Shown piece by piece: positions 2,440 to 40,661 of a DNA stretch of 64,000 nucleotides. Numbering within the stretch: the stretch's first letter is position 1; each line of letters starts with the position of its first letter. The position numbers were made by a program, and so were the translations under genes. The stretch is from Hydnum rufescens UP504. Taxonomy: Eukaryota > Basidiomycota > Agaricomycetes > Cantharellales > Hydnaceae. The stretch covers positions 50,523 through 114,522 of the forward strand of contig MU129098.1 in the NCBI GenBank assembly GCA_014904985.1, written 5' to 3'. The notes below the pieces were generated by a model that searched no databases, had not been told where the DNA came from, and saw nothing but the letters and a program-made list of their open reading frames with translations.

Positions 2440-4552
2440 TTAGGATTCCTTCAGCAGGATGCCCATGTCCTCGAGGTTGAGGTTGTCCAGCATGATTTCA
2501 TAATGCTCAAACCATCCATTCCAACAGAATTGCTCACCTGTGTAGGTGCCACAAGCTGTGAGAGACATGGGATCAACTTTGGGGGTGGATTGAGCCAGCC
2601 ATTCCAGCGTAGTCTGGTGCAAACTGGTGAAGGGTATCTGGATGTTGAATTTGACAGGCTCTTGGTATGATGAGTGCCTTCTTATCAGAGAATCCAGTTT
2701 CTGTGTAGCTTCGAGTAGTTCCCGGGTGCTGAACACCATGAGTAGGCATAAGTATTCGATCCATTTCTCTAGGAGAGTGATGAGGTTGTGGGAAGTGAGG
2801 AGGTATCTGGACATTAAGCTCTGCAAGAGTCCCTGAACTTGTGGAGGACTGTTCGGGTGGAGGAGTTTAACCAGGTCCATGGACTTGAAGGTCATGCCAG
2901 GGGGGTGAGTGAGGCTGCCTTTTATTAAGGTAGCTGGAGGGATTGGACATAGCTCTAGCCTCCTATGGCTTTGTTCGATCAGCACCTCCACTATCCATGC
3001 GGAAGCCTTGGGACCCCAGGGTTGGTAAAGGCTGGCCTCATACTGTCGAGCATATGCTGAAGGCTTGGAAGGATAGAACTTCACGGCCAGCTTTTGGCTT
3101 TCCAGTGCCCAACATGCCCAATCCCTTTCGGTGAAGATGAGGGTGAGACAGGGCTCTTCGTAGAGCCATTGTTTGACCCTGAGCTGTATCTTTCCAGCAA
3201 TTCCTCCTCCAAGTGTGCCTCAGGTCTCAAGTACATGAATGGATAAAATTCCACTGGGAACTGATCCGTCTGGTCATCTGTAGGACCCCATACCTCGTTG
3301 GGATCTGACTCCTTGGGGGTTTCCTCTATGGCCTGGGGGTCTCGAGTTGTGGGGCTGACGTCTTCAGGCAGGGTGAAGTCAGTGGTCGGCAAGGTGTTAT
3401 TGTCATCTTCGTAGGGCGTGAGTTCCTCCTCCAGATACATGGGGGCAGCTGTGTGCGGCCTGGTACGCCATTCTTGTGGCAATTCGGAGTGGGGACATCT
3501 CATAGATCCTGAGGCAGCAGTGACATAAAGATTGTAGTCCTCCATACAGGTGAGCAAGGAGGGAGGGGCGCCATGGGAGCACAAAGATGGATTTTGGGGA
3601 GTGACTCAGGCTGTCGCCAATCGAATCCTTGACACTCTAGCCACTCCTGACACAATGGGTAGTTCTGCAACAACAGCGATGGGGGAGGACTAGTGTCTTC
3701 ATGATCAGCCCACCGGGACAGCAGCAACGTATCCTTGCCGAGACATTCCTGTAGTTCCTGTAGGATTGGCCAGTAGCCACTTTCCTGGGCTTGTGATAGC
3801 CAGCATACAAGGCCTTCTAAATAGTTTTCGTTCAGAGGGCCTTGCAGGGAGCGGAAGTAGGAGGGGTGATGGCAATAGTAGGGGCCTGTCATTTTAGTTT
3901 CTCATGGGTGGCCTTTCTCTGTTACCCAGATCTCCTCCAGGGGGTTCATAAGCCACTGGTGGCCCTGCTCTGCTAGTCACTTCTCAAATGATTTGCAGAT
4001 CAGCTTTTGTGCATATGCATCATGCAAGTCCCAGTGGGGGTGCCTTGTCTTTATTTCCTTCTCAGCATCCGTCCAGAGGGGTGAATACTGGGTGGTACCG
4101 TGAGGGTAGAGTTTGAGGCTGGGGGTCTCGTTCTCAATGGCCATCGACCATATGGGAGCTCCCAGCTCAGCGAGCCCCCTTCCAATAAGGATGGAATGGC
4201 AGTCATGGCTAGAGACTATTAAGCCTGTAAGACATGTTGTAGTCCTGAATTGAGGAGGTCTGAGGCATTCCTTGAAGCAGAGCAGGTAGAGTATGACTCG
4301 GAAAGCCAAGGTTATGAAGCCTGTGGCCTCGAGTATGCGCCTCCGTAGCTCTTGAGCAACATGAGCGGCTTTCCACACAGGGGCTGGAGTTGTTCCCTGT
4401 TGGAGGAGGTACAGCCACGACAGCCCAAAGTGCCAGTCTGGGTCATAACTGGATGGGAGAAGGAGGTGGAAATGAGCTGTTACTTGGTCTATGCACCTTA
4501 TGCAGCGCAGCATGGTGGTGCCAGCTGCACAGACTTCACTGAGGAACTTCAA
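2440..4552 (-). pseudogene. Cluster of unidentified minus-strand ORFs, probably part of a transposable element
   Basis: Four consecutive minus-strand ORFs (4552-3977, 3892-3500, 3584-3081, 3084-2440; 191, 130, 167 and 214 aa) follow one another with small overlaps or gaps. They are rich in W, H, L and P and look like one ancestral reading frame broken by frameshifts. I recognise no domain. They lie upstream, in the same orientation, of the gag-like zinc-knuckle segment, so they may be the 5' coding part of the same retroelement or sequence captured by it. Introns cannot be excluded as the reason for the frame changes. The gaps 1778-2439 and 4553-5098 hold nothing further I can name. Confidence 0.35.
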
Positions 4553-5159: not shown

Positions 5160-5539
5160 TGGGAAGGAGGGGGCTCCACAGTTGCCTTGTGGGGTCTGCG
5201 AGTATGTCAAGCATGTTCCTTCAGGGACCCCCAGTACTCCCTGAGCCTGGAAAATGTGTTTCGTAGTCCCCCTTCAGGCTCGAACATATCGTTTTTGGGT
5301 CCATATCCTTGCCATCTCACAAGATACTCTCTTTGTTGCTTCTGTGGGTTATACCTATGCCCAACTATTTTCTCCACTTTGTATTCTTCCTCTGTGGATA
5401 GTTCCCTTAGTTCCGGGAGCTTCCCTCACCTCCCACTTTGCTCATCCCAGTAGTACTTCGTTAAATGCTGGATGTTTATTACTGGGTGCATCTTATACTC
5501 AGGTGGCAGCTGAAGGCGATAAACCACCAGGTTGATTTC

Positions 5540-7110
5540 ACTATATACCATACCTCTAACCCCCAAATTGAATAGATCTAGAATATTTCTTGAATAACTC
5601 AATCAATATTGCATGGGATGTTCTGAAATTTGAATCATACACTGTTACATACTACTACTACAGATAGCAACAACTTTCATACAGATTGGATCACTGAGTG
5701 AAGCAGGGGGAGGGGAGGATCTTGGTCATGTGACCAATGTCAAAAGTGCTTAGAATGGGCTAAAATTTTGGGCCTGAGCCTCAAATGGTGGCCGGGTGAA
5801 AAAATGGGAGTGATTGGAGCTCTGGAAGTGCCCCAATTGGAGGGGGTATGTCAGTGAAACTTGAAAATATTATGGAAACTCTCACACTGGAGTCATGAAT
5901 CTGAAATTTTGGGGGATGTTATAAATGTATTTGGATGACCAAAGGGTGAATTTTCAGGGCCATTGCATGGATGGAAGACTCTGGGGGGGAAATTGTTGTT
6001 TTGGGGGGAGGGCTGTGGAGCAGTGCCTAAATGGAGTCCAGTTAGGCTGATATTTGGTATATGAACTCCCTATATATGTGCTAGACTAGTTGTATAATAT
6101 CAGAGCCACCCCAGCTCTACATTTGATGTAATTCCCTTTTGACCTTCCTCCCCCTCCCCCTCAATTTCAGGCACTTCCACACATCCAATTCATTTTATTT
6201 TTGGATATAGTCAGGGTCATACTAATCAAAGCTTATTCCACCTAGTTTAGGCCTGAGGTGGAGTGGCTCACATTCATGGTAGGGTTTTGTTCCCATTTTT
6301 CCTGCCAAGGGAGTGGCATGCCTAAAAGTAAACCAAAAAAGCTGATTTTTGGCACATATGTAGTTCATCATATGGCCATACCCCATGTAAAATTTCAAGT
6401 TCATATCCTGTCTGTAGGGGGAGTAAATTAATTTTCAATGTTCAAACTTGTTTGGCCCATAACTCCATAACTAGTGGATGGGTATGGCTGAAATTTTGAT
6501 ATGATTTTCGCCTAAGAAGCTTCTAATCATGTGCCAATTTTCAGAGCGATCTGCACAGTGGTTCTTTTTTGGAAATTTCCGGTGGTTCTGGTACCCCCTG
6601 TCCAGTTCACTGCCTTAACCTGGATGGATTGGGATAATTTTTGGCACATAATTAGTACACTATATTTTATGCTCCCTGTAAATTTTCAAGTCCCCAGCTA
6701 TTCTATGGGAGGAGAAAATCAATTTTCAATATCCAAACTTGTTTGCCTCATATCTCAATAACTAATGCATGGATTTGGCTGAAATTTTAATATGGTTTGC
6801 GGCCAGATGGTCTCTAGTCATGTGCCAAACTTCAGATTGATCTGATCAGCGCTTAGATTCCGGCAACTTCCGGTGGTCCAGAGCTGTTCTTCCTGCCCTC
6901 ATTGTTTCAGGGATTAACCATTGGCCCTGGGCCTAATTTTTTCACTTTATCAGGGTCCCCAGGGGTCCATCCATCCATCCCAGGCACCTCCCCCTGGTCC
7001 TGGGCCCCCATTGGGCTGGATGCCTAAATATTCTTTGGATGTACTTCATTTAATTTCCGCATTTTGGCATTTTTTTAAGATAGGATACATGTATTATGTA
7101 ACTGGATACC
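5540..7110. repeat. Old diverged repeat copy related to the core of the 9.5-14 kb palindrome
   Basis: By eye this stretch aligns in the same orientation with the right arm of the palindrome from 11700 to about 12795 (and inverted to the left arm). Shared landmarks include CCCCAAATTGAAT followed by GATCTAGAAT, the string CATACTACTACTACA, GAAGCAGGGGGAGG, CTTCCACACATCCAATTCAT and TTTTTGGATATAGTCAGGG. It carries many substitutions and extra sequence relative to the arm. Part of the extra length is an internal duplication: the segment near 6410-6560 recurs near 6700-6850 (TTTTCAATGTTCAAACTTG versus TTTTCAATATCCAAACTTG). It has no coding potential, is AT-rich and CpG-poor, and looks like an old inactivated transposon body. 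Confidence 0.8.
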
Positions 7111-7160: not shown

Positions 7161-7390
7161 TGCCTAGACACCTAGACATGCCTAGACATGCCCAGACATG
7201 CCTAGACACCTAGACACCTAGACATGCCTAGATATGCCTAGACATGCCTAGACACCTAGACATGCCTAGACATGCCTAGACATGCCTAGACACCTAGACA
7301 TGCCTAGACATGCCTAGACATGCCTAGACACCTAGACATGCCCAGACAAGCTTAGACACCCCTAGACATGCTTAGACTTGCTTAGGCACA
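7161..7390. repeat. Decamer minisatellite (CCTAGACATG)n
   Basis: About 230 bp of tandem units of roughly 10 bp, consensus CCTAGACATG, mixed with a shorter variant CCTAGACAC and point variants such as CCCAGACATG. Units degrade toward 7390 into AGACTTGCTTAGG. Isolated CTAGACAT strings persist to about 7830. Units abut with no spacers, so this is a minisatellite and not a CRISPR-like array. Confidence 0.9.
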
Positions 7391-9140: not shown

Positions 9141-9410
9141 AATACCCCCAACCTACTGTACCTTCTGCATTTGTCCACTCTACATTTGCCTCAGCTGGGA
9201 TCCACATGTTTTCCATGAATGAGACTGAGAAGCTACTGAGAATATTACTTCTCCAGGCAGCCACAGGGTAATTTTGAATGGAACATATGCCACTGAGCTG
9301 TGGATCCGTGGCTACTTGAATATATTACAATGCTAATGATGCAGATTCACGGTGGTGTACTGACTCCCCCACCGAGGTGCCTCAACATCCGGCAGGAGCC
9401 CAAATTGGTC
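9141..9410. repeat. First unit of a ~270-bp tandem duplication
   Basis: This unit starts at AATACCCCCA and recurs as 9411-9465 joined to 13969-14190, with the palindromic element inserted in the second copy. Shared strings include TTTGCCTCAGCTGGGATCC, GCTACTGAGAATATTACTTC, TCCAGGCAGCCACAGGGTAA and TGCAGATTCACGG. The two copies differ by scattered substitutions. No coding function is evident. Confidence 0.8.
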
Positions 9411-9457: not shown

Positions 9458-9465
9458 CACATTTG
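9458..9465. repeat. 8-bp target site duplication, left copy
   Basis: CACATTTG immediately precedes the left end of the palindromic element and is repeated exactly at 13961-13968. Eight-bp duplications are the hallmark of hAT-superfamily insertion. The unoccupied unit 1 has TACATTTG at the equivalent position (around 9182-9189), followed by the same CCTCAGCTGGG as in the right flank, which supports a clean insertion. Confidence 0.85.
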
Positions 9466-11693
9466 CACCTCAGGCCCCCCATTTTGGCAACCTCCTTAGG
9501 TTGACTTCGTCCTGTGCGGATGTCAACCTAACAAGGTAGGACTGAATGTGTACCTTTGTGGAGCTACAGTCAGAATGTTCCATATAAATAAGTGTAGCTA
9601 CACAACCTGAAGTGTAGCACCACTGGGGGTCTGGGGGCGGAGCCCCCAGGAGCTCAGGGGTAGTGTTGCTACATTTTTGAATTAGACTATTAGTGGAGCT
9701 ACAGTTGTGTGCCTCAGGGTAGTGATGTAGCTACACCCTATAGAGTCCTTCAAATAGTGTAGCTACATCTATGGGCGAGTATTGAATGAATCAGTGTAGC
9801 TACACATAGCCAGATTTGCCTTCAAAAAAAATGCAATGACAGCCTTGGCCATAAGGTAAATTTATTACATAATTAATACTACCTAATGAACACATTATAT
9901 AACTACCTACTAATCTATTACCTAATTATTTTACTACCTAATTGATTGTATAATTATATCATTTAGATTGCATAACCGGCACCTCTGGCACTGGTTATGC
10001 AAAGAGAGGGGTCAGCCCACCCCACCCCATCAACTAGAGGGGTGGAGGCTGCGCAGATACCCAGAAACGATGCTTCCAGGACCCCCTTGTGTGGCATGGG
10101 GGAGGTAGCATGAACAACGCCGGCCCTTAGGCCAGCTCTGTTCATGCTACCTCCCCCATGCCACACAAGGGGGCCCTGGGAGGTGCTGGAGGGGGTGGAG
10201 GCCCCTGGGGAGTGGGGAGGACCTGGGGGATTCTATAATGGGAAGATGGCGGGTTAGTGAAAAAATCAAGAGGAGTGCAAAAAGAGTAGCCAGAGGCTGC
10301 TCTTTTTGCACTAAAGTAGCTATAAAAATAGCAACATACCTAAGCACCACACCCCAGTCTATACTGGGGTGTGGTGACTGCTCCTGGGCTCTCGGTAGAT
10401 GGTGGTGGTGGTGTCGCACGAAACGAAAACTTTCCGGCAATTGCTGGTAAATTGAACCTGGGACTCAATGCCGGCAATTGCCCAGTTTCAAAGGCAAGCC
10501 ACCTGCTGCTATGAAAAAGCCTAAATGCAGTAACTAGATAGACCCATATAATAGGGTAGATTAGATAATACTGCATAATAACTTTGGATCATTTCTCATT
10601 ACATAATACAGTGATTCCTATTTAAAAAAGCCTAAATGCAGAAATTGGATAAAGTACATCCAAACAAGGGGTGAGCAGACCATTCTGAAATTTGGTACAT
10701 CATTAGAAAATATTTCTACACAGATTATATCAAAATTTCAGCCAAATTGGTCCAGGGGTTATGGAGATATAAGGCAAACAAGTCTGGACATTGATAATTT
10801 ATTTCCTCCCTTTGCAGAATAGCTAGAGACTTTAAAATTGGCAAAAACTTAGACAATATAATTTCCTAACCATGTGCCAAAAATCAGCCCAATCCATGCA
10901 CTTTAAGGGAATGAACTCCCTTTTCAGGCAAAAAGAGAACAACAAGCTACCATGAATGTTAAACACTTCAAATTACACCTAAAATAGGTGTAATAGGCTC
11001 ATAATAGTATATCCCTGACTATATCCAAAAATATAATGAATTGGATGTGTGGAAGTAGCTGAAATTGAGGGGGAGGGGGGAAAAGATCAAAAGTGAATTA
11101 CATAAGATGTACAGCAGGGGTGGCTCTTATATTACACCACTGAGTTAATACATATATGGGGAGTGTACATGCCAGATATCAGCCCAACTGGACTCCATTT
11201 AGGCAGTACTCCACAGGCCTCCCCCCTAAACAACAATTTCCTCCCCAGAGCCTTCCATCCATGCAATTTCCTTGGAAATGCACACTTAGTTCATCCAAAT
11301 ACATTTATAGCATCCCTCAAATTTTCAGATTCATAACTCCAGTGCCAGAGTCTCCATAATATTTTCAAGTTTCACTGAAATACACCCTCCAGTTGGGACA
11401 CTTCTAGAGCTCCAATTACTCTGATTTTTTGTAGGCCACACCTCCTCACTATTTGAGGCTCAGCCCTAAAATTTCAGCCCATTCTGAGGACTTTTGAAAT
11501 CTGTCACATGACCAAGATCTTCTCCTCCCCCTGCTTCACTCAGTCCTCTAATTTGTATGGACTTTGTTGCCATTTGTAGTAGTAGTATGTGACAGTGTAT
11601 GATTTAAATTTCAAAATATTCCATGCAATATTCATGGAGTTATTCAAGAAACATTCTAGATCAATTCAATTTGGGGTCAGAACAGCGGTATTT
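9466..11693 (+). repeat. Left arm of palindromic element
   Basis: The outer half (9466 to about 10560) contains four TGTAGCTACA motifs (9593, 9726, 9758, 9795), a GC-rich stretch with a row of perfect hairpins (9968-10376) and the short ORFs. The inner half (about 10600-11693) is AT-rich, lacks CpG and is the inverted homologue of the old repeat at 5540-7110. Confidence 0.9.
9968..10376. repeat. Row of perfect hairpins inside the left arm (mirrored in the right arm)
   Basis: Four perfect inverted repeats follow one another. 9968-9977/9993-10002: TTGCATAACC stem, extended to 12 bp in the right arm. 10082-10116/10139-10173: 35-bp perfect stem with a 22-nt loop, beginning CCCCCTTGTGTGG. 10274-10286/10300-10312: AGTGCAAAAAGAG stem whose loop again pairs (AGCC/GGCT). 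10345-10358/10363-10376: CACCACACCCCAGT stem with a 4-nt loop. A further 9-bp stem (TAGGTTGAC) lies at 9497-9530. The right arm carries all of them inverted at about 13050-13430. Confidence 0.85.
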
Positions 11694-11698
11694 CCACT
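11694..11698. other. 5-nt spacer at centre of the palindrome
   Basis: The sequence CCACT separates AGCGGTATTT on the left from AAATACCGCT on the right. The related old repeat near 5535-5560 contains TTCACTATATACC at the homologous place, so the spacer itself appears to be inherited. Confidence 0.85.
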
Positions 11699-13960
11699 AA
11701 ATACCGCTGTTCTGACCCCAAATTGAATTGATCTAGAATGTTTCTTGAATAACTCCATGAATATTGCATGGAATATTTTGAAATTTAAATCATACACTGT
11801 CACATACTACTACTACAAATGGCAACAAAGTCCATACAAATTAGAGGACTGAGTGAAGCAGGGGGAGGAGAAGATCTTGGTCATGTGACAGATTTCAAAA
11901 GTCCTCAGAATGGGCTGAAATTTTAGGGCTGAGCCTCAAATAGTGAGGAGGTGTGGCCTACAAAAAATCAGAGTAATTGGAGCTCTAGAAGTGTCCCAAC
12001 TGGAGGGTGTATTTCAGTGAAACTTGAAAATATTATGGAGACTCTGGCACTGGAGTTATGAATCTGAAAATTTGAGGGATGCTATAAATGTATTTGGATG
12101 AACTAAGTGTGCATTTCCAAGGAAATTGCATGGATGGAAGGCTCTGGGGAGGAAATTGTTGTTTAGGGGGGAGGCCTGTGGAGTACTGCCTAAATGGAGT
12201 CCAGTTGGGCTGATATCTGGCATGTACACTCCCCATATATGTATTAACTCAGTGGTGTAATATAAGAGCCACCCCTGCTGTACATCTTATGTAATTCACT
12301 TTTGATCTTTTCCCCCCTCCCCCTCAATTTCAGCTACTTCCACACATCCAATTCATTATATTTTTGGATATAGTCAGGGATATACTATTATGAGCCTATT
12401 ACACCTATTTTAGGTGTAATTTGAAGTGTTTAACATTCATGGTAGCTTGTTGTTCTCTTTTTGCCTGAAAAGGGAGTTCATTCCCTTAAAGTGCATGGAT
12501 TGGGCTGATTTTTGGCACATGGTTAGGAAATTATATTGTCTAAGTTTTTGCCAATTTTAAAGTCTCTAGCTATTCTGCAAAGGGAGGAAATAAATTATCA
12601 ATGTCCAGACTTGTTTGCCTTATATCTCCATAACCCCTGGACCAATTTGGCTGAAATTTTGATATAATCTGTGTAGAAATATTTTCTAATGATGTACCAA
12701 ATTTCAGAATGGTCTGCTCACCCCTTGTTTGGATGTACTTTATCCAATTTCTGCATTTAGGCTTTTTTAAATAGGAATCACTGTATTATGTAATGAGAAA
12801 TGATCCAAAGTTATTATGCAGTATTATCTAATCTACCCTATTATATGGGTCTATCTAGTTACTGCATTTAGGCTTTTTCATAGCAGCAGGTGGCTTGCCT
12901 TTGAAACTGGGCAATTGCCGGCATTGAGTCCCAGGTTCAATTTACCAGCAATTGCCGGAAAGTTTTCGTTTCGCACGACACCACCACCACCATCTACTGA
13001 GAGCCCAGGAGCAGTCACCACACCCCAGTATAGACTGGGGTGTGGTGCTTAGGTATGTTGCTATTTTTATAGCTACTTTAGTGCAAAAAGAGCAGCCTCT
13101 GGCTACTCTTTTTGCACTCCTCTTGATTTTTTCACTAACCCGCCATCTTCCCATTATAGAATCCCCCCAGGTCCTCCCCACTCCCCAGGGGCCTCCACCC
13201 CCTCCAGCACCTCCCAGGGCCCCCTTGTGTGGCATGGGGGAGGTAGCATGAACAGAGCTGGCCTAAGGGCCGGCGTTGTTCATGCTACCTCCCCCATGCC
13301 ACACAAGGGGGTCCTGGAAGCATCGTTTCTGGGTATCTGCGCAGCCTCCACCCCTCTAGTTGATGGGGTGGGGTGGGCTGACCCCTCTCTTTGCATAACC
13401 GGTGCCAGAGGTGCCGGTTATGCAATCTAAATTATATAATTATACAATCAATTAGGTAGTAAAATAATTAGGTAATAGATTAGTAGGTAGTTATATAATG
13501 TGTTCATTAGGTAGTATTAATTATGTAATAAATTTACCTTATGGCCAAGGCTGTCATTGCATTTTTTTTGAAGGCAAATCTGGCTATGTGTAGCTACACT
13601 GATTCATTCAATACTCGCCCATAGATGTAGCTACACTAAATAAATCAGGTAGAAACCATGTAGCTACACTATTTGAAGGACTCTATAGGGTGTAGCTACA
13701 TCACTACCCTGAGGCACACAACTGTAGCTCCACTAATAGTCTAATTCAAAAATGTAGCAACACTACCCCTGAGCTCCCGGGGGCTCTGCCCCCGGACCCC
13801 CAGTGGTGCTACACTTCAGGTTGTGTAGCTACACTTATTTATATGGAACATTCTGACTGTAGCTCCACAAAGGTACACATTCAGTCCTACCTTGTTAGGT
13901 TGACATCCGCACAGGACGAAGTCAACCTAAGGAGGTTGCCGAAATGGGGGGCCTGAGGTG
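11699..13960 (-). repeat. Right arm of palindromic element
   Basis: Inverted copy of the left arm. It has a fifth TGTAGCTACA motif, because a 33-nt segment bounded by TGTAGCTACACT at 13626 and 13659 is present here and absent on the left. One extra G in the G-run (C-run on the plus strand near 13165) accounts for the last nucleotide of length difference. Confidence 0.9.
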
Positions 13961-13968
13961 CACATTTG
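13961..13968. repeat. 8-bp target site duplication, right copy
   Basis: CACATTTG directly follows the right terminal repeat GGCCTGAGGTG and matches 9458-9465 exactly. Confidence 0.85.
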
Positions 13969-14190: not shown

Positions 14191-14202
14191 TGTTCTGAGG
14201 TG

Positions 14203-14245
14203 TAGTTGCAGGTAAAATATCGAGATATTCATCATCATCATCATC
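14203..14245 (+). mobile_element. 43-bp retro-insertion with (ATC)n tail and 13-bp target duplication
   Basis: The insert reads TAGTTGCAGGTAAAATATCG, then AGATATTC and (ATC)n. GTGTTCTGAGGTG occurs directly before (14190-14202) and directly after (14246-14258). An almost identical core with its own target duplication occurs at 25722-25780. A 3' microsatellite tail plus variable-length target duplications is what target-primed reverse transcription leaves, so this looks like the extreme 3' end of a non-LTR retroelement (LINE or SINE), heavily 5'-truncated. Confidence 0.8.
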
Positions 14246-25340: not shown

Positions 25341-26119
25341 ATCGGAGTTGATATCGTGGGCTTTGAATGGTATTGCAATATTGTGCTTTTCGCCCCAACT
25401 GCGGATGATAATCGAATGCACAATTCGCGTCACCCACTCCCGCGAACAGGAGCACGCCAACTTTTGCTGCTCTAGGAATTTTCTTAGTATTGAAAAGCTC
25501 TTAATTAATAAATGAATTACAGCTATGTATTCCTCATGAAGTAAGTCATCACCCAGAAGTGAGAAACACATGATCATTGTAACGTACACCCTCGCTAATT
25601 TTGGTGCGAGAATAACTGTGATAATATCCCTCTAGTTGTTGAAGCATTGAAGACACCATCACAAAAGATCCTTTGGCAACGCCACCAATTGGAAATCGTG
25701 TGTTATTCCATTTGATCAGCTTCGGGAGCAGCCGGTAGTTGCAGGTAAAATATCGAGATATTCATCATCATCATCATCATCCATTTGATCAGCTGTAGCG
25801 CACCTTGGGTGGTAGGCCCTGGTCTCAAAGCAAAACACCCGTCTGGAATCTCTCCAAACGACTTAGCAATCTGTATGAGTGAATCTTCATGTGGACCTGG
25901 GCTATTGTTGTGGTGTTCGATTTGTGGTCTACGAGATTTATGTCATAATACGGGAAAATCCGTAGCTCTCGAAAACGTATCTCCAGACGCTCACCTTCGC
26001 CACCGGGTTGAATCCGTCGCCACGAGAAGCGACCCTGCTCGCATTAACTGTAGCGATTTGGCACGGCTTTGCGCGTCCTTGGGCTGTCCCACCCAGACCA
26101 GCCGCAAACCTAAGAGAGC
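25341..26119. other. Intergenic spacer with small retro-insertion
   Basis: No gene supported. It contains the 59-bp insertion at 25722-25780 described separately. Confidence 0.6.
25722..25780 (+). mobile_element. 59-bp retro-insertion with (ATC)n tail and 14-bp target duplication
   Basis: The insert begins TCGGGAGCAGCCGG, then repeats the 14203-14245 core (TAGTTGCAGGTAAAATATCG and onward) and ends in (ATC)n/(CAT)n. CCATTTGATCAGCT lies directly before (25708-25721) and directly after (25781-25794). It extends 16 nt further 5' than the 14.2-kb copy, as expected for independent 5' truncations of one retroelement family. Confidence 0.85.
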
Positions 26120-36494: not shown

Positions 36495-38080
36495 ATGTCG
36501 GACGGCCGCCGGGGGACTCAGAGGCTACTTACTTTGATTCGGGACTCTCTGGACGCTCTCTCCCCCTTGATGAAAGAGGATCGCGGACGTATAACCCCAG
36601 GACACATTCCAGATATTGCAACTTCCAGTCGCCTCCGCCGCGATCCTGCCATAATTCATGAACTTGAGCGGTTCGACGCGGACCTAAAAATTATGGATGA
36701 GATAGACGCGGCTCTGCACACATTGCGCCGACGCCTTCTAGCCCACAACCACGAATACCGGACTCAACTCGCCCCCATATCCTTACTCCCAGTCGAAATT
36801 CTTTGTTCCATCTTTGTGCATGTAATGACATCAGAAATCGGCTCTCCTGGGTTCGTGCGAGACACCCCCAAATATGTTGCCTCCATTACCCACGTCTGTC
36901 GACGATGGCGGACGATCGCACTGGAGCAAGCCCAGCTTTGGACACACATCAATGCCAACTGGCCACCCGATCAAATTGCCACATGGCTCTCCCGTGGTAC
37001 TCTTCCGCTTTGTGCGACTTACGTCCCCACGGGAATCCGACGAGCCCACCACGGGATCCCTAACGATATTCCCCTGACTACGGAGGATAGAATACGGGTC
37101 ATGATTTCACTGGTGTCACATTCACACCGATGGAGTGCCGCAAAGTTGTGTTTCAATGTAGGATTCTGGGATGTGATGCATCGAATCTTGAATGAATCGG
37201 ATTTTGGACAGCTCCGCACGTTGTCACTCCATGGCCGTAATCGGTTGTCCAACTCCCAGCCTTCTGCCGTCATCGACGTGAGAGCCTTTCCCAGGCTGCA
37301 CTCCCTCGAATTGTTTCGTGCCCGCATTAAAAATCTCGTCACACTCTGCCCCCAGCTTGTACGCCTCGTTGTCGGCCATACCCCCCATCTCGAGCTGGAA
37401 GAATGGGCGGCAGTGCTGCCGTCTTGCAATGTCTTGGAATACCTAGAGATTGGATGGTTGGGTCCTGATGAGTTGCGCCCTTCCACTATATCCCTGCCGC
37501 CCATCCCCATGGCGAAGCTGAGGACGTTGATTGTGCGTAATGTTTCCCTACGGACATTCACAGATCTCCTAGGGCGGCTGCGCACCCCGTGCCTCAGTAC
37601 TTTTAGCTTGGGCTCGGGGAACCGGTTAGGTGCGGATGACTCATGGGAGAGAAGTTTACAGGAGTTTGTAGGTCATCTTTCAATCGTTCTTCCTCTTTGA
37701 CATTCAATCTTCGATGATGCTTTTAGTTGGCTTCGCACGAGACCTTGACAACTATGGATGTTAGTACAGTATCGGACGATGTCCGCGTGGTCATTCGGTC
37801 ACTTTGGGAAGCAGGAAGCACTTTGGCCAGGGACACAATCCAAGCTCGGAGGCCGCTGCTCCCCTCTCTTCACGTCCTTTCCCTCCGTCTCAGTGAAGGG
37901 CGTATCTGCGAAGTGCCCGAGGCGGACCTCGCGAATTTGGCGGCTTTATATGCGGCTCGTGGGTTAAATATTTGCGTCCCGCCGTGCGACAATGAGGATG
38001 AGCTCTGGTTGCGAAGGGTATTCCCAAATGTTGAAGTGGGAACGAAGGTGTGGGGCAAGATTGATAGTACCAAAGATTAA
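36495..38080 (+). CDS. F-box-like/LRR protein, tandem copy A
   Basis: Two exons (36495-37667, 37727-38080) join across a 59-nt intron GTAGGTC...TTTTAG (QEF|LASHETL). A predicted coiled-coil N-terminus (ELERFDADLKIMDEIDAALH) leads into an F-box-like motif, PISLLPVEILCSIFVHV, and VCRRWRTIALEQAQLW. Leucine-rich segments follow (FPRLHSLELFRARIKNL, LEYLEIGWLG). Such proteins usually recruit targets to an SCF ubiquitin ligase; large F-box-like families are typical of Agaricomycetes. Copy B at 39058 is a close paralog with the same intron position and length. About 508 aa. Substrate unknown. Confidence 0.85.
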
Positions 38081-39057: not shown

Positions 39058-40661
39058 ATGCGTGCAGTATTGGACGGCCGCCAGGGGACTCAGAGGCTGC
39101 TTAATTCGATTCGGGACTCCTTGGTCGCCCTCGGCCCCGTGATAGAAGAAGATAGCAATCGTATAACCCTAGGGCCCATCACAGACATTGCCACTTCCAA
39201 TCGTCTCCGGCGAGATCCCGCCATACTCCATGAATTTTCGCAGTTCGATGCGGATTTAAAAACCATGGAAGAGATAGACGGGATCCTGCACACGCTACAG
39301 CGACGCCTTCTAGCCCAGCGAAACGAATACCAGACTCAACTCGCCCCCATATCCATAATCCCCGTTGAAATCCTACGTTCCATCTTTGTGTATGTAATGA
39401 CATCAGAAATCGGCTCTCCTGGATTCGTGCGAGACACGCCCAAATATGTTGCCTCCATTACCCACGTCTGTCGACGATGGCGGACGATCGCACTGGAGCA
39501 AGCCCAACTTTGGACACACATCAATGCCAACTGGCCCCCCGATCAAATTACCACATGGCTCTCTCGTGGTACTCTTCCACTTCGCGTGACTTACGTCCAC
39601 AACCCCAAGGCAAACCCACCAACTTACCCCGGGCTCTCCAGTCGGCAGACGGTGACTACGGAGGATGAAATGCGGGCGGTCAACACACTGGTGTCCCATT
39701 CGCACCGATGGAGAGCCGCAAAGTTGACTTTCAATATTGGATTCTTCGGCGTAATGCATCGTGTCCTGAGTGAATCCGATTTTGGCCAGCTCCGTACTTT
39801 GTTACTCCATGGCCACCCTGGTACATTCACCGAGCAGCATTCTGCCAACATCGACGCGGGTGCCTTTCCCAGGCTGCATTCCCTCGAATTGTTTCGCGCC
39901 CACATCAGGAATCTCACCACGCTCTGCCCTCAGCTTGTGCACCTCGTTGTCAGTCCCACTCGTCTCGAGCTGGAAGAATGGGCGGCAGTGCTGCCATCTT
40001 GCCATTTCTTGGAATATCTAGAGATTGGATGGCTGGGTTCTGATAGGTTACGCCCTTCTGCGATTGCCCTACCGCCCATTCCCATGGCGAAGCTGAAGAC
40101 GTTCACTGTGCGTAATGTTTCCCTGCGGACATTCACGGATCTCGTAGGCCGGGTGCGCAGCCCATGTCTCACTACTTTCAGCATGGGTTCAATTGCTCGG
40201 CTAGGCGGGGATAACTTGTGGGGGAGAAGTTTACAGGAGTTTGTCAGTCATCTTTCAGTCATTCTTCGCCTTTGGTGTTCACGCTTAAATGCTGGTTTTA
40301 GCTGGCTTCTCACGAGACGTTAACAACAATGGATGTTAGCGCAGTAGCGGATAATGTCCGCGTTGTCATTCGGTCGCTTTGGGGAGCAGGAAGCACGTTG
40401 GCCAGGGACACAATGCAGCCTCGAAGGCTGCTCCCTTCTCTCCATGTACTTTCCATCCGACTCAGTGAAGGGCGTATCTGTGAAGTGCCCGAGGCGGACC
40501 TCATGAATTTGGCGACTTTATATTCGGCTCAGGGGAACACGCCCTTCAAGCTTTGCGTCCCGCGGTGCGATAATGCAGATGAGCTCTGGTTACGAAGGAT
40601 GTTCTCAAAAGTTGAAGTGGGAACGAAGATGTGGGGCAAGATTGATAGTGGGACACATTAA
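39058..40661 (+). CDS. F-box-like/LRR protein, tandem copy B
   Basis: Paralog of copy A: exons 39058-40242 and 40302-40661, intron again 59 nt at the same codon boundary. The stretch TSEIGSPGFVRDTPKYVASI through VCRRWRTIALEQAQLWTHIN is nearly identical in both copies, whereas the segment after GTLPL diverges (VTYVHNPKANPPTYPG here, ATYVPTGIRRAHHG in A) and the LRR part is moderately diverged. The F-box-like motif reads PISIIPVEILRSIFVYV. About 514 aa. Both copies have open frames, so both are probably expressed. Confidence 0.85.

Follow-up and report, generated by a model that had tools for sequence, protein, structure and literature searches.

A near-perfect palindrome with KDZ transposon ends in Hydnum rufescens, best read as a gene-less foldback-type element

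Here, the window denotes the whole stretch of 64,000 nucleotides analyzed from Hydnum rufescens UP504 (contig MU129098.1, positions 50,523 to 114,522), an ectomycorrhizal mushroom (PMC7550596). It contains a near-perfect palindromic element that is best read as a gene-less, foldback-type derivative of a KDZ (Kyakuja-Dileera-Zisupton) transposon and not as a hAT element. The element adds a foldback form with KDZ ends to the KDZ transposons. The model that we favor with good confidence as a whole describes a gene-less foldback-type DNA transposon with KDZ ends that is moved by a KDZ transposase, is copied as a palindrome, and has its arms sometimes overwritten.

The features of the element and its surroundings are collected in Table 1. 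In the alignment of the two arms, 2219 columns match, 9 are mismatched and 34 contain a gap, the latter stemming from two indels of 33 nt and 1 nt. Over their inner 1275 nt, the arms do not differ at all; the nine mismatches and both indels lie farther out. The earlier note had described two inverted copies around a spacer of 5 nt, bordered by an exact 8-bp duplication; its coordinates, spacer, termini and duplication were all borne out. The long inverted arms constitute almost the whole element, which ends CA..TG. When 597 nt around the centre were folded as one strand, a z-score of -66 was obtained against 100 shuffles, and 33 other loci share this centre; the palindrome exceeds chance.

Table 1. 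Features of the palindromic element and related sequences; positions refer to the window.
Feature	Position	Strand	Remark
Old one-armed relative, 70-87% to arm in ungapped blocks, not palindromic	5530..6870	-	limits by eye
Paralogous unoccupied target unit	9160..9390	+	joined-flank comparison
Left 8-bp target-site duplication CACATTTG	9458..9465	.	
Left arm, 2228 nt	9466..11693	+	
Left-arm outer stretch common to KDZ transposon ends (C143, C189)	9466..9828	+	92-99% in aligned pieces
Motif GTAGCTAC, four copies	9594..9803	+	starts 9594, 9727, 9759, 9796, each within TGTAGCTACA
Nested hairpin in left arm	10073..10182	.	own arms 53 nt, 91%
Palindromic core common to sister family with other termini	10189..13203	.	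arm positions ~724-2228 on both sides
Central spacer CCACT, 5 nt	11694..11698	.	
Right arm, 2262 nt	11699..13960	-	
Nested hairpin in right arm	13211..13320	.	same as left-arm hairpin
Right-arm outer stretch common to KDZ transposon ends	13565..13960	-	98% to C143, 94% to C189
Motif GTAGCTAC, five copies	13590..13832	-	starts 13590, 13627, 13660, 13692, 13825
Right 8-bp target-site duplication CACATTTG	13961..13968	.	

The element has no visible coding content: the ORF scan revealed no ORF above 99 aa inside it. Hence, it does not itself encode a KDZ transposase and is classed as a derivative rather than as an autonomous member. No Rfam family reached its gathering score between 5400 and 14300. 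All nine copies of GTAGCTAC in the window are located inside the element, and it is possible that they represent candidate transposase-binding repeats. An empty counterpart of the insertion site had been proposed at 9141-9410. When joined, the flanks match the neighboring unit at 210 of 235 positions (89%) over approximately 9160-9390, and this unit therefore represents a paralogous site without the insertion.

Further repeats and genes were observed in the window. In the one-armed relative, the centre is recognizable by eye at ~5530-5547, while the other arm is gone, as if removed beside the centre. A tandem array with the units CCTAGACATG and CCTAGACA occupies 7163-7350, and an exact 44-nt repeat is present at 14202-14245 and 25735-25778, 11.5 kb apart. 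Two adjacent F-box genes are arranged in tandem (36495-37700 and 39058-40323). The gene at 36495-37700 shares 90% identity with the F-box protein BS47DRAFT_378947 of Hydnum rufescens UP504 across 81% of its length, and a window-encoded protein with 73% identity to the first F-box protein presumably represents the second gene.

The assignment to KDZ is deduced from the ends. The first 175 nt of the arm retrieved at least 39 termini starting within 3 nt of the end (best 40 of 49 candidates scored). Ten are those of palindromic or long-TIR elements and ten those of KDZ copies; 19 were assigned to neither, which counts against the KDZ reading. At C143, a gene whose product contains a KDZ domain (Pfam scan, E 3.7e-18) comes after about 400 nt resembling the outer part of the arm. 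With this gene region as query, 11 full or partial copies were found in the genome, nine of which (C143, C134, C2, C189, C56, C30, C363, C48, and C92) carry a window-type terminus 311-736 bp beyond the match; the remaining two, C367 and C147, are cut short and do not reach the terminal side of the query. At C189:52933-66512, 13,580 bp lie between two window-type ends, the DNA in between having been read only in part. Its right end resembles the C143 end at 94% over about 500 nt, and its duplication GAGAGGAG/GGGAGGAG agrees in 7 of 8 positions. Altogether, the genome contains at least 154 KDZ matches (best 150 of 584 candidates scored). No domain was recognized by Pfam in eight more reading frames, taken from the KDZ copies C2 and C189. 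For P0001, a transposase-like protein of the same strain, the best genome stretches reach 95% and 91% with no identical match, for which intron-bearing gene models may be the reason. The window element thus shows an 8-bp duplication together with ends that are common to elements encoding a KDZ transposase.

The earlier note had described the movement of the palindrome as hAT-like, and the 8-bp duplication would fit such an element. This part of the proposal was not supported, as a KDZ transposase is encoded by the full-length relatives that have these long ends. KDZ is another superfamily with 8-bp duplications. The genes linked to window-type ends are KDZ or DDE_3-like, and the nine reading frames scanned by Pfam (two of C52, seven of C143) contained neither a hAT nor a Mutator-type transposase domain. 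We consider a hAT origin extremely improbable.

A second candidate for the mover is the DDE_3-like protein of C52. The C52 element comprises 6267 bp with TIRs of 1558 bp, which are 99.7% alike and ~92-95% identical to the window arm, and its duplication agrees in 7 of 8 positions. It encloses a DDE_3-like gene (E 0.11 only) and not a KDZ gene, which counts against the KDZ reading; therefore, another transposase could serve. Along this line, a gene of the same type is located ~1.6-1.8 kb inside a terminus of the sister family described below (one END2, at C63), and a weak DDE_3-like match lies ~7 kb inside a window-type terminus at C213. Yet among the 39 DDE_3-like matches listed, only those of C52 sit between two listed window-type termini, whereas 9 of the 11 KDZ gene copies adjoin such a terminus. 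Moreover, one residue in the presumed catalytic centre of the C52 protein departs from 14 of the 16 relatives with a recognizable motif. The Pfam family that the protein faintly resembles, DDE_3, presumably belongs to the Tc1/IS630-type enzymes, which argues against it as well; Tc1/IS630-type enzymes make TA duplications. Taken together, we regard a DDE_3-like mover as quite unlikely. As for the C52 locus itself, C52:270964-277230 represents a long-TIR member of the same family around a DDE_3-like transposase gene, and relatives of the protein occur in Hydnum, Mycena, Rhizopogon, and Favolaschia.

Since the ends of the palindrome are those of KDZ transposons of the 8-bp-duplication type, a KDZ transposase remains the preferred mover. 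The non-autonomous element would consist of two inverted arms and no gene, and the KDZ transposase of the 13.6-kb relatives would most likely cut and paste it, as the common ends suggest.

A search of the genome with the left arm gave at least 203 matches (best 40 of 603 candidates scored). Both sides of the palindrome centre are present in 34 of the 39 fetched regions, the window included, and with the same 40 best candidates behind it this number is a lower bound. The spacer has exactly 5 nt in 28 of the 34 related centres and 6 nt in one; the centre is slightly altered in four (C10, C447, C5a, and C76b) and interrupted by an insertion of 856 nt in C197. This insertion (region L024, ~2520-3375) ends TGTCAGG...CCTGACA and is perhaps a solo LTR. 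Across the genome, the arms of the elements range from identical to about 9-10% apart.

The earlier note had also proposed that the palindrome moved or was inserted as a unit, and had suggested searching for palindromic copies with other duplications. This was confirmed: copies elsewhere are palindromic, end at CACCTCAGG, and carry other 8-bp duplications, as exemplified by C266 with its own exact TCACAGTG. In C177, both termini are present with no 8-bp duplication. As the centre is common to 34 loci, fresh formation of the palindrome at each insertion was ruled out. It also follows that the palindrome is not remade but copied in its existing form, around a fixed centre.

The palindromic core is shared with a sister family of approximately 4.1-4.2 kb, whose members end at CAGCCTGGTCAGCC and CACCTTGGTCAGCC and whose outer flanks, unlike each other, were named END1 and END2. 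An exact 8-bp duplication is present in seven of the nine sister elements with both ends in the fetched DNA and missing in the other two, C40 and C78. C248 carries END1 at both of its ends and lacks a duplication. The lack of an 8-bp duplication in C177, C248, C40, and C78 counts against the KDZ reading. At least 41 END2 matches were found, and a comparison of coordinates placed none of them near a KDZ match among those listed. At C7:505440-519251, two END2 termini point towards each other across 13.8 kb, which is close to the size of the C189 KDZ element.

A tree of 62 core arms over 775 nt reveals different relationships between the arms of one element. In C113, C38, C5b, C260, C136, and C239a, among others, they are sisters, while in C28, C40, and C97 the END1-side and END2-side arms tend to separate. 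In seven elements (C10, C447, C5a, C239b, C55, C66, and C92), the arms fall into separate clades and are 7.5-9.2% apart; these lineages give no sign of conversion in the tree and persist as imperfect palindromes. C266 is a hybrid palindrome (L005/L004) with its left core inside the sister-family clade, and the left core of C177 forms a long branch. The arm differences of C266 are mainly found 0-500 nt (48) and 1750-2000 nt (27) from the centre.

Among the 27 elements with both cores, nine have arms that are strictly each other's nearest; 500 shuffles gave 0.28 such elements on average and never more than 3. The 18 elements in which the arms are not, as judged from the 775-nt core, count against the favored model. 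For 15 sister elements with labelled sides, the arms within an element are 0.73% apart, compared with 1.75% (END1) and 1.83% (END2) between elements, and all of 2000 random pairings gave higher values. Private variants occur on both arms in 48 cases and on one arm in 112.

Further information comes from 45 sites diagnostic for END1 or END2, located 1075-1328 nt from the centre. They were defined by C28, C40, C76b, and C97, which were picked for their many arm differences in this stretch and fit by construction. In ten of the other 11 sister elements, the letters are of the END2 type outside and of the END1 type inside a single switch located between 1260 and 1237 nt, apart from stray exceptions at single sites; C136 has a switch of its own between 1193 and 1173 nt from the centre. 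The ten common boundaries may go back to one ancestral event, and therefore only two events are counted: the diagnostic sites show two conversions in the sister family, both of END1 onto END2. In this process, one arm was overwritten from the other in tracts ending ~1.2 kb from the centre, and the arms are thereby kept alike.

The spacer, read with END1 at left, is AGTGG in nine elements (C5b with one extra base), turned to CCACT in C136, C323, and C260, and CAGTG in C113 and C38; a clean spacer is absent from C76b. Crossing-over between the arms would give such a reversal, and misassembly might do so too. In C248, none of the 10 substitutions is more than 136 nt away from the centre, and 1-nt indels are present at 22 and 578. 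This element was nonetheless set aside as a proof of conversion, since its two END1 flanks and missing duplication may mean that it is a recombinant or a misassembly.

The similarity of the arms might also be a product of the assembly, with a real centre and true arm differences lost by collapse from ~150 nt to 1 kb away from it. The genomes of the project go back either to Illumina assemblies (ALLPATHS-LG), patched with PacBio data or not, or to PacBio assemblies, the available part of the source leaving the route for H. rufescens unspecified (PMC7550596). N runs are present in 5 of the 39 fetched regions, and the arms of the sister family still differ in the innermost 150 nt, where single reads could separate them. 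These points speak for collapse. On the other hand, ten elements have one and the same boundary, located in a stretch where the unconverted arms differ at 29 diagnostic sites in ~160 nt and should be resolved easily. The seven elements with strongly diverged arms came out of the assembly as such, and exact 8-bp duplications bracket most of the scorable sister elements. We consider collapse unlikely, though less so than the rival transposases discussed above.

The perfection of the arms probably reflects inheritance and, in addition, occasional renewal by arm-to-arm conversion, the tracts being those of the sister family. The window element displays no conversion tract of its own: its arms do not differ over the inner 1275 nt, and its nine mismatches lie outside. 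Recent conversion and read collapse could equally have caused this pattern.

In the sister elements, the ratio of within- to between-element arm difference is 0.80 up to 150 nt from the centre but drops to 0.22 at 150-1050 nt, a gap of 0.35 to 0.80 by bootstrap over 13 elements; the zone limits were set after viewing a finer profile, and C40 and C76b, whose centres contain indels, were omitted. Thus, the innermost 150 nt seem to escape homogenization in these elements, although the same pattern could arise from a short-read collapse in which just the innermost stretch is resolved. The window element does not show a spared centre, its arms being free of differences there. Purely centre-outward conversion was rejected, as the two boundaries agree with it and the innermost 150 nt do not.

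It is conceivable, if on balance doubtful, that the palindromic family persists since arm-to-arm conversion keeps the arms alike while being unable to reach the innermost ~150 bp. A spared centre would be expected from an exchange of duplex arms because short duplex DNA resists folding back. If true, the ~150-bp limit would be close to the length at which stiff duplex DNA no longer folds back on itself. It would point to an exchange between two double-stranded arms and not to hairpin or cruciform repair, and recombination between inverted repeats would thereby gain a natural ruler.

Hairpin-forming inverted repeats have been called a threat to chromosomal integrity (PMC3855049), and long perfect palindromes are thought hard to keep. 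Here, at least 34 loci with one centre exist in one genome, many of them inside transposons with defined ends. How palindromes are tolerated and how their arms become homogenized can consequently be tested in one organism.

Among known systems, Zisupton and Dileera produce 8-bp duplications, and Kyakuja is described with 7-bp duplications and CA..TG ends without TIRs (PMC12730594). The KDZ elements of Cryptococcus measure about 9-11 kb with TIRs of 139-241 bp and mostly 8-bp duplications: KDZ1 is mobile, with ~11 kb, 241-bp TIRs and 8-bp duplications, while KDZ2 and KDZ3 have ~9-10 kb and duplications of 4-8 bp (PMC12810828). The Hydnum element resembles these by its 8-bp duplications and by the ~400-500 nt of end sequence shared with full-length relatives that encode a KDZ transposase. 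It differs in being gene-less and a near-perfect palindrome with arms far longer than the Cryptococcus TIRs reported there. Despite its CA..TG ends, its 8-bp duplications and long TIRs set it apart from Kyakuja as described. A literature search that included work on zisupton and on palindromes, through the accessible parts of the sources and with thin coverage of subscription journals, found no palindromic KDZ element.

With the foldback elements FB/FB4 of Drosophila and Tetris, it shares long inverted arms that make up most of the element, many of these elements being gene-less as well, and Tetris TIRs reach up to 1735 bp (PMC4079207, PMC4022104). FB-type elements, however, have a central loop or middle domain and are mostly placed in Mutator (PMC4079207), whereas the loop here has 5 nt and the ends are of KDZ type. 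Galileo, a member of the P superfamily in Drosophila, likewise has long, structurally dynamic TIRs and duplications of 7 or 8 bp (PMC4168063), but its transposase comes from another superfamily. Finally, the palindromes of sex chromosomes are also palindromic repeats kept through gene conversion (PMC7023750), though they are chromosomal structures and not transposons.
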